Below, piece by piece: positions 1,593 through 2,533 of a stretch of DNA of 64,000 bases (positions are counted from its first letter, which is position 1; every line of letters begins with the position of its first letter). The notes beneath the pieces are model-generated. The model ran no database searches and had not been told where the DNA came from. It was given only the letters and a program-made list of their open reading frames with translations. The translations under genes were made by a program, and so were the position numbers. This DNA is from Ignavibacteriales bacterium (GTDB taxonomy: Bacteria; Bacteroidota; Ignavibacteria; Ignavibacteriales; Ignavibacteriaceae): positions 1 to 64,000 of the forward strand of contig JAGUYG010000001.1 of NCBI GenBank assembly GCA_020061465.1. Direction: 5' to 3'.

Positions 1593-1670
1593 CGGGGTGT
1601 AGCGCAGCCCGGTTAGCGCGCTTCGTTCGGGACGAAGAGGTCGGGGGTTCGAATCCCCCCACCCCGACCA
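1593..1670 (+). tRNA. tRNA-Pro (anticodon CGG)
   Basis: A complete cloverleaf can be folded by eye. The acceptor is CGGGGTG (1593-1599) paired with CACCCCG (1660-1666). The anticodon stem is CTTCG/CGAAG with the 7-nt loop TTCGGGA (1626-1632), giving anticodon CGG at 1628-1630. The T arm is GGGGG-TTCGAAT-CCCCC. The discriminator is A1667 and the CCA end (1668-1670) is encoded. The next gene starts only three bases after the CCA. Confidence 0.96.
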
Positions 1671-1673
1671 ATT

Positions 1674-1916
1674 ATGGTCTTCTTTGTTTACATAATTTTT
1701 AGCGCTTCAAAAACTCGTTATTCTGTCGGGCATACGGATAATCTTCAAAGAAGATTTGTTGGACGCAACTCCGGCTTAAATATTTCTACTAAATTTGGTG
1801 TGCCCTGGGAGCTCGTTTTTCAGAAAGATTTTCCTTCTCGTTCTGAGGCTATGATCTTTGAAAATATGATTAAGAAAAGAGGCATCAAGCGTTTTCTTGA
1901 TTCTCTAAAAAAATAA
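1674..1916 (+). CDS. GIY-YIG (URI-type) single-domain endonuclease next to a tRNA
   Basis: An 80-aa protein that is essentially one GIY-YIG domain: FVYIIFSAS (first Tyr strand), YSVGHTDNLQRR (here YSVG replaces the usual YIG-like second motif, with the downstream Arg kept), then PWELVFQKDFPSRSEAMIFE with the conserved metal-binding Glu near residue 63, and a basic tail. Stand-alone proteins of this family are presumed DNA endonucleases; a biological role is not established for most of them. The ATG lies 3 nt after the tRNA-Pro CCA end with no room for a normal promoter or RBS, so it would be read from the tRNA transcript. A broken second copy of the tRNA 3' part follows the stop codon by 7 nt. 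It is the only ORF of a roughly 311-bp unit. Confidence 0.85.
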   Translation: MVFFVYIIFSASKTRYSVGHTDNLQRRFVGRNSGLNISTKFGVPWELVFQKDFPSRSEAMIFENMIKKRGIKRFLDSLKK

Positions 1917-1923
1917 TTTCCCC

Positions 1924-2001
1924 TTAGCGCGTGGCGCCTTTGGCGCCAAGGTCGGGGGTTCTTCCGAAGGAATCCTTTGGAGAATCCCCCCACCCCGACC
2001 A
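1924..2001 (+). pseudogene. Partial, disrupted duplicate of the tRNA-Pro 3' portion
   Basis: Positions 1924-1961 align without gaps to tRNA positions 1613-1650. TTAGCGCG is identical. The 17-nt anticodon arm has the same length but a different sequence (stem TGGCG/CGCCA, loop CCTTTGG). AGGTCGGGGGTTC is identical. A 20-nt insertion (1962-1981) made of two small hairpins (TTCC-GAA-GGAA and TCC-TTT-GGA) then splits the T loop. Positions 1982-2004 match tRNA positions 1651-1673, including the CCA and the following ATT. No 5' acceptor or D-arm 5' half is present, so it cannot be a functional tRNA. The long GGTCGGGG/CCCCGACC pairing could still form a strong hairpin in the transcript. Confidence 0.8.
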
Positions 2002-2035
2002 ATTTTTTAATAAAATCGTTAATCATCACAATCAA

Positions 2036-2533
2036 ATGGCACAAAATCATTCTTTTGATATAGTATCTGAAGTTGATCTGCAAGAAGCGGATAATGCTGT
2101 AAATCAAGCATTGAAAGAAATCCATCAGAGGTATGACCTTAAAGATTCTTCAACTACTATTGAGTTAAATAAAAAAGAAAAAACTATTTCAATCAATTCG
2201 AAGGATGACTATTCGCTTCGGGCGAGTATCGACATATTGCAATCAAAGTTTATCAGGCGTGGAATTTCTATTAAAGCACTTAAGTTAAACCAGCCTGAAC
2301 CTGCCGCAGGCGGGCGATTGAAACAATTGATTAATTTGCAAAGCGGAATTTCCAAAGAGAATGCGAAGAAGATTACTAAAATGATTAAGGACTCAAAACT
2401 AAAAGTAAACGCTCAAATCCAGGATGAACAGATTAGAGTACAAGCACCGAAAATTGACGATTTACAAGCAGTAATAAAATTAGTCAAAGATGCCGACCTT
2501 GACTTTCCCACACAGTTTGTAAATCTCAAGTAA
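2036..2533 (+). CDS. yajQ: YajQ family nucleotide-binding protein (UPF0234/DUF520)
   Basis: From the ATG at 2036 the product is 165 aa, the usual length for YajQ. It begins AQNHSFDIVSEVDLQEADNAV and carries the family blocks RYDLKDSS near residue 30, FIRRGIS in the middle, and FPTQFVNLK at the C-terminus. Homologues bind cyclic di-GMP or nucleic acid in some species; the role here is not known. The reading frame is open further upstream through the tRNA-like repeat, but those codons (starting 1931) come from repeat sequence and do not match the family, so the shorter start is chosen. The gene follows the broken tRNA copy closely. Confidence 0.92.
   Translation: MAQNHSFDIVSEVDLQEADNAVNQALKEIHQRYDLKDSSTTIELNKKEKTISINSKDDYSLRASIDILQSKFIRRGISIKALKLNQPEPAAGGRLKQLINLQSGISKENAKKITKMIKDSKLKVNAQIQDEQIRVQAPKIDDLQAVIKLVKDADLDFPTQFVNLK

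Follow-up and report, generated by a model that had tools for sequence, protein, structure and literature searches.

The window, a stretch of 64,000 nucleotides from an Ignavibacteriales bacterium, contains an intact tRNA-Pro(CGG) gene followed by a small ORF for a GIY-YIG nuclease, a second, partial copy of the tRNA and finally yajQ (Table 1). A whole gene, an endonuclease ORF and a second copy of the gene end are all present at this locus. In a search of the host genome, tRNA-Pro(CGG) gave a single match with 100% identity, the other match (78%) being tRNA-Pro(TGG). A sequence-only reading had placed a GIY-YIG nuclease between tRNA-Pro and a partial copy of it, in a unit of 311 bp, and this layout was confirmed by ARAGORN, Rfam, Pfam and the 23-nt repeat; the unit length (1613 to 1924) is correct, and the ORF does start 3 nt behind the intact CCA. 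The whole partial copy covers 1924-2004, and its tRNA-derived stretches (tRNA positions 21-28, 46-58 and 59-78) are all exact. That reading had also described a 20-nt hairpin splitting the T loop of the copy, which is indeed there, and an anticodon arm of unchanged length but changed sequence; 17 nt are in fact replaced, but it had been overlooked that they form a perfect hairpin.

Table 1. Features at the tRNA-Pro(CGG) locus of the window
Feature	Position	Strand	Basis
Intact tRNA-Pro(CGG)	1593..1670	+	ARAGORN; Rfam tRNA 67.8 bits
ATT spacer from CCA to ORF; recurs behind the partial copy	1671..1673	+	Sequence
GIY-YIG nuclease ORF, 80 aa, single-domain	1674..1916	+	ORF call, Pfam, structure model
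7-nt linker from stop codon to partial copy	1917..1923	+	Sequence
Partial tRNA copy, end of D arm (tRNA positions 21-28)	1924..1931	+	
Perfect 7-bp hairpin TGGCGCC-TTT-GGCGCCA in place of the anticodon arm (positions 29-45, 17 nt)	1932..1948	+	
Partial tRNA copy, variable loop and 5' T stem (positions 46-58)	1949..1961	+	
Second hairpin, 20 nt, inserted in the T loop between positions 58/59	1962..1981	+	
Partial tRNA copy, 3' T stem to CCA (positions 59-78) plus ATT	1982..2004	+	23-nt exact direct repeat
yajQ, flanking anchor gene for the empty-site comparison, outside the unit	2036..2533	+	

Several other identities were considered for parts of this locus. No intron family was found around the ORF, which lies outside the intact tRNA, when 1400-2600 was scanned with Rfam at E up to 0.1. 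Islands inserted by tyrosine recombinases at tRNA 3' ends likewise reconstitute the tRNA, with a 3' direct repeat left behind, but the 311-bp unit contains no integrase, the GIY-YIG ORF being the sole sense ORF of at least 50 aa wholly inside it, and its inner part is a hairpin-altered copy. No Rfam family fits the partial copy at gathering level, and MIR393 was rejected as its identity because the match lay under the gathering score. The anticodon-arm hairpin is not a dispersed genomic palindrome, since TGGCGCC-n-GGCGCCA occurs at only 1 place in the genome. The motif of a palindrome within yajQ (2300-2315) also occurs once in the genome, and a further hairpin insertion was dismissed there because YajQ of seven relatives aligns across it without a gap.

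The window ORF matches the Pfam GIY-YIG family PF01541 (E 4.5e-10), whereas no NCBIfam model matched it. Its AF2 model (pLDDT 90.2) is closest in fold to UPF0213 BH0048 and Slx1; the Foldseek hits comprised UPF0213, Slx1, UvrC and, weakly, I-TevI (E 0.75), and the best PDB match was BH0048 (1zg2), with E 0.0097 by sequence and 6.8e-4 by fold. In size and fold the nuclease thus resembles the small GIY-YIG proteins of the UPF0213 type, to which the label COG2827 presumably applies. To our knowledge, these proteins have been recognised from sequence and fold and not from mobile units at tRNA genes, and we know of no role assigned to the relatives of this ORF. A phage or plasmid vehicle was discarded: with a cutoff of E 0.01 the protein had no match among phage records, and the plasmid records gave a single match, with 35% identity. 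Two residues set the window nuclease apart from its family, Y17S and H31R. As Y17 is kept in 118 and H31 in 117 of 119 family members, most relatives retain both residues. By analogy with I-TevI, positions 17 and 31 would be catalytic, and with S17 and R31 at two near-invariant positions the nuclease of the window is, judging from its sequence, probably inactive.

Mobility of the unit was assessed with yajQ as anchor, which was present in 84 of the 97 searched genomes (the window's own included) and of which 70 loci were mapped. Upstream of yajQ, 34 of these loci had no tRNA-Pro on the same strand, 4 were too short and 32 had one. Among the latter, which include the window, 19 were clean, 6 carried the nuclease on the 5' side of the tRNA (one of them, L117, as a short weak match), 4 carried it on the 3' side, as in the window, and 3 had only a fragment, which in two cases (L093 and L113) rests on 11 matched nt. 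The state of the site varies even within a genus: genus g4 has one empty site besides two that hold a 3' unit, and genus g27 combines an empty site with one that has only fragments and one filled by a triple 5' array. Comparison of the filled G026 locus with the empty G044 locus of the same genus showed an upstream flank of 236 nt with 87.7% identity that reaches into the first partial copy; past this aligned flank, G026 contains three 317-bp units (951 bp), followed by the tRNA and yajQ. From the empty and filled yajQ loci and from this pair, we conclude that the nuclease is a polymorphic insertion. The sequence-only reading had expected a homing-type mobile unit that spares the tRNA and had named the absence of any empty site among relatives as one outcome that would speak against it; the 19 clean loci among 32, the variation within genera and the continuity of the flank around the 951-bp insertion support its expectation.

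The same data bear on the idea that the unit is a module domesticated by the host, for example one that controls how tRNA-Pro or yajQ is expressed. The frame of the window ORF is still open, and among 15 nuclease pairs compared, of which 9 were saturated, the six finite dN/dS values were 0.06, 0.19, 0.20, 0.24, 0.25 and 0.77 (two of them with dS above 1.4), that is, at most 0.25 in five of the six measurable pairs of relatives, as a module kept for the host might show. However, the unit is cleanly absent from 19 of the 32 comparable loci, and the window copy departs from its family at two near-invariant residues, so that we regard domestication as extremely improbable. The low dN/dS values also count for the homing-type reading set out below.

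Relatives of the nuclease are widespread. Matches at E up to 1e-8 were found in 56 of 97 genomes, two of them (G011:C25 and G019:C1:1321474) being seen only in the yajQ maps, and in a sample of the phylum that overlaps with the former one, 117 of 198 genomes had a nuclease match with an E value of 1e-6 or below; the surveyed genomes are often drafts. A scan of genome contigs gave 19 loci that by title belong mostly to Bacteroidota, but also to Acidobacteria, Zixiibacteriota and Sumerlaeota. Units occur in two forms. The 3' type has the order intact tRNA, spacer, nuclease and partial copy, and the 5' type the order partial copy, nuclease and intact tRNA. A tRNA on the same strand could be assigned to 151 of 178 nuclease hits, a set in which pieces of broken ORFs count separately, and it lay within 150 nt in 111 of the 178. 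The occurrence of such nucleases beside other tRNA genes with partial copies, for which the earlier reading had suggested to look, was established for 12 isotypes (Pro, Asp, Asn, Ser, Cys, Ala, Arg, Leu, Met, Gly, Lys and Val); tRNA-Phe (L042) was left out, as this ARAGORN call fell on a hairpin-bearing copy of tRNA-Ala. A partial copy with at least 20 matched nt was present in the expected place in 117 of 151 cases, compared to 4 of 151 in a control in which each tRNA was resampled once; at a threshold of 16 nt the numbers were 126 and 14, respectively. L007 and L025 are apparently one locus, which is counted twice among the 178 hits and in the set of 134 copies analysed below, and once in the rescan for arrays.

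The remaining 27 of the 178 hits, at 18 loci, had no assigned tRNA. Inspection by eye revealed tRNA-like remnants at 14 of these loci and none at L002, L004, L005 and L050; L002, L004 and L005 are loci of the window's host genome that have the nuclease without a visible tRNA copy. At L004 (G000:C36), the nuclease relative (1501-1740) is located about 340 nt downstream of tmRNA (766-1163). Another locus of this genome, L003 (G000:C11), has two tandem, nuclease-free 80-bp copies of the 5' part of tRNA-Asn with hairpins upstream of the tRNA, and a nuclease with a 3' partial copy downstream; repeat units without nuclease thus exist. The phylum sample contributed 22 new loci out of 30, the other 8 lying in genomes already surveyed. 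A same-strand tRNA within 200 nt was found at 16 of the 22 and a partial copy at 12, and hence the link to tRNA genes, as scored, is weaker in this sample than in near relatives. In two genomes of one genus (L210 and L211), the nuclease (1501-1749 of the oriented locus) lies directly 5' of RNase P RNA: the match to Rfam RF00010 starts about at the end of the ORF, and 19-nt perfect inverted repeats were seen by eye on either side. From these neighbours, the targets of such nucleases may extend beyond tRNA genes.

The anatomy of the partial copies was analysed in 134 copies from 91 loci, a set restricted to copies that have at least 20 matched nt and lie no farther than 120 nt from a nuclease, at loci other than L002, L004 and L005. 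The outer tRNA end is mostly included: 66 of 80 downstream copies reach the 3' end of the tRNA, and 47 of 54 upstream copies start at its 5' end. Aligned with the tRNA, 114 of the 134 copies are interrupted by a gap of 8 nt or more. In 103 copies a gap can form a stem of 5 bp or longer, leaving 31 without a 5-bp hairpin by that measure, and the best stem has at least 6 bp in 97 of the 134 gaps, compared to 4.4 expected from permuted gaps. The copy of the window itself folds better than its shuffled versions (z -4.4; 0 of 200 shuffles equal). Gaps in the D arm occurred at 25 loci upstream and 3 downstream and gaps in the T arm at 0 upstream and 29 downstream (p 3e-13), a sorting by side that is partly built in because a 5' copy holds the 5' part only; gaps in the anticodon arm or variable region were found at 12 loci upstream and 33 downstream. 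Positions recur within an isotype: one common position accounts for 17 of 20 Asp gaps, and positions 21/22 and 16/22 account for 9 and 8, respectively, of the 23 Ser gaps listed for the 5' side. In 17 Pro-type hairpins, which were picked by hand with a preference for intact ones (imperfect examples such as L032 are outside the list), all six outer pairs are retained although three of the six vary in sequence, and the TGGCGC stem of the window is present in 6 of them. The hairpins of the window's partial copy look constrained.

Two further observations concern such hairpins. In the window's genome (G000), palindromes of the form TCCCGA-n-TCGGGA occur at 52 places, compared to 1 in the control, and this dispersed repeat resembles many hairpins of partial tRNA copies. 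At L008, the nuclease lies between full-length pseudo-tRNAs with hairpins in place of both the anticodon arm and the T arm; Rfam continues to recognise them as tRNA (35 bits).

With respect to the origin of the partial copies, the sequence-only reading had proposed that the unit brings a replacement for the 3' part of the tRNA, the displaced part being left downstream to decay. Neither a foreign 3' part nor simple decay is well supported by the survey. Compared with tRNAs of the same isotype and length, the copy was closest to its own tRNA in 70 of 92 cases, tied in 21 and closer to another tRNA in 1, a comparison that is limited by the conservation of tRNAs and biased toward the own match by the detection with the resident tRNA; the copies thus track the resident tRNA. 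The view of the downstream copy as a mere decaying remnant conflicts with hairpins of at least 5 bp in 103 of 134 copies, at positions that recur per isotype. Ordinary tandem duplication of the tRNA flanks, with the nuclease as passenger and the partial copies as decaying duplicates, would account for the match to the resident tRNA and for the existence of arrays. However, decaying duplicates do not acquire stems of 6 bp or more in 97 of 134 gaps where permutation yields 4.4, and duplication leaves nucleases dedicated to an isotype and broken units at the distal ends of arrays (see below) unaccounted for. We therefore consider it very unlikely.

Clades of the nuclease follow the isotype of the adjacent tRNA. 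On a tree of 119 of the 178 hits (unique, length of at least 65, no stop, supported by 16 nt or more of partial copy), 17 isotype changes were required, the least possible number being 12, whereas shuffled labels required 70.3 on average and none of 200 shuffles was as low; this clustering is inflated by near-copies, and the alignment has few columns. The arm that carries the hairpin, scored on 79 nucleases of the tree, required 16 changes, compared to a mean of 35.4 and a minimum of 27 in 200 shuffles.

That the clades follow both isotype and arm, and that the partial copy of the window would fold stably as RNA, could also be expected of a toxin-like nuclease that cleaves tRNA, with the hairpin-bearing partial tRNA as decoy or buffer. 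We attach little credence to this explanation: the fold matches with a named activity (Slx1, UvrC and I-TevI) are DNA nucleases, and the empty sites, the boundaries of the inserts and the order of decay in the arrays are signs of mobility at the level of DNA. A further alternative is that mobility is directed by structure, the nuclease recognising hairpin or cruciform DNA of tRNA arms, so that the palindromic hairpin would be the structured transposition end of the element rather than an erased target. Consistent with this, the closest folds are those of BH0048 (1zg2) and Slx1, and some Slx1 entries are titled as processing branched DNA; the 80-aa protein has no separate DNA-binding domain; and the hairpins sit in stem-loop arms, with the six outer pairs always paired in the 17 hand-picked Pro-type hairpins while three of them vary. 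On the other hand, hairpin sequences differ widely, some resembling the palindrome dispersed over 52 places of G000 (1 in the control), and the isotype specificity speaks for recognition of sequence. Recognition of structure is thus unlikely in our judgement, although it deserves more weight than cleavage of tRNA.

Units frequently form tandem arrays. Examples are five units 315 bp apart at tRNA-Asp (L051), five at tRNA-Met (L252) and four units 322 bp apart at tRNA-Pro (L197). A systematic rescan yielded 32 distinct arrays beside an intact tRNA. Broken units, defined by a nuclease span under 210 nt or a split one and with copies at contig edges dropped, were found in 12 of the 32 arrays; one array (L027) was unscored because a copy is cut by the contig end. 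In 11 of the 12, the sole broken copy was the one distal to the tRNA, and in L180 both copies were flagged, the proximal one owing to an overlapping second match. In none of the 12 was a near or middle copy alone broken. The probability that the broken copy is distal in 11 of 11 arrays by chance is about 1e-4 (four arrays with three scored copies and seven with two). As broken units lie at the distal end, new ones were apparently added next to the tRNA, and the pattern points to the tRNA-proximal side as the place where new units join an array. A separate stretch (L251, G143:C34) has eight tandem units with partial copies resembling tRNA-Met, headed, by eye, by a 3' tRNA part; ARAGORN found no intact tRNA in it.

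Taken together, we favour, with moderate confidence, the reading that the window unit is a 3'-type member of a large family of homing-type cassettes that are directed at tRNA genes and regenerate their target. Each unit would combine a nuclease that consists of one GIY-YIG domain and is specific to one tRNA with a partial copy of the same tRNA, made up of the outer tRNA end, a target arm that a hairpin replaces or splits, and a short piece of inner sequence. The nuclease would cut the tRNA gene in one arm, and a template carrying the unit would serve to repair the break, the intact tRNA and the partial copy acting as putative homology arms. The unit goes in while the tRNA stays whole, as observed in the layout and the empty sites. 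In the carried copy, the hairpin probably erases the cut site and thereby spares the copy from cutting. Since the tRNA, and hence the target, is regenerated, insertion can be repeated and units can pile up at the tRNA; repeated insertion at the tRNA-proximal end may be the cause of the arrays and of their decay at the distal end. The unit of the window would be late in this cycle, located at the sole tRNA-Pro(CGG) found in its genome and with a nuclease that is probably dead. Against the reading as homing cassettes we count that the target remains intact with a nuclease next to it and that the nuclease of the window looks dead. On the same side are the copies' match to the resident tRNA, the 27 hits that had no assigned tRNA, the weaker link in the phylum sample and the 31 copies in which no 5-bp hairpin was measured. 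The window is thus probably one worn-out member of widespread, self-spreading tRNA-gene cassettes that keep the tRNA intact.

Two known systems share parts of this plan. The nearest architecture among the comparisons made is that of mobile ORFs in fungal mitochondria (Allomyces atp6; Glomus atp6, atp9, cox2 and nad3), for which the accessible parts of the source describe an endonuclease ORF behind a gene with a duplicated 3' part, retention of the hybrid gene, an argued foreign origin of the 3' part and, for atp9, an ORF of the GIY-YIG type (PMC3630166). As far as those parts go, these ORFs are associated with protein genes in mitochondria and the present units with tRNA genes on bacterial chromosomes, and, unlike the former, the latter come in a 5' and a 3' form, carry hairpins in their copies, build up tandem arrays and have copies that track the resident tRNA. 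SegB of phages T4 and T6 is a free-standing GIY-YIG homing endonuclease encoded beside tRNA genes that, according to the available excerpts, is implicated in breaks in tRNA-containing sequence and drives tandem amplification by homologous recombination (PMC13096335). The location of a GIY-YIG nuclease beside tRNA genes and the tandem amplification are similar in both cases, and because SegB acts among tRNA genes and causes tandem amplification, the proposed cutting of the tRNA gene and the repeated insertion appear plausible. In contrast, SegB is phage-borne, and the same excerpts contain neither a partial tRNA copy with a hairpin nor cassettes for individual isotypes. Among the matches listed for the open-access literature (preprints and most subscription papers are outside this scope), there was no prior description of chromosomal GIY-YIG units directed at tRNA genes.

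In a wider and more tentative interpretation, which we hold to be possible but less than probable, the units would represent a new class of minimal bacterial mobile elements of about 0.3 kb with one nuclease of about 80 aa, which read stem-loop arms of structured RNA genes as targets and use a hairpin-substituted mimic of the target as their own end. Such a class would cover many tRNA isotypes and possibly RNase P RNA, and would explain to a large extent why small GIY-YIG proteins have expanded in the phylum. If the favoured reading is true, many small GIY-YIG ORFs of the phylum would be parasites of tRNA genes with a predictable anatomy, and their role could be tested simply, since a named tRNA gene should be cleaved and the hairpin copy spared. 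The units would then offer a system for studying the life of a selfish element in a single-copy RNA gene and a model for tRNA-specific targeting by a domain of 80 aa.
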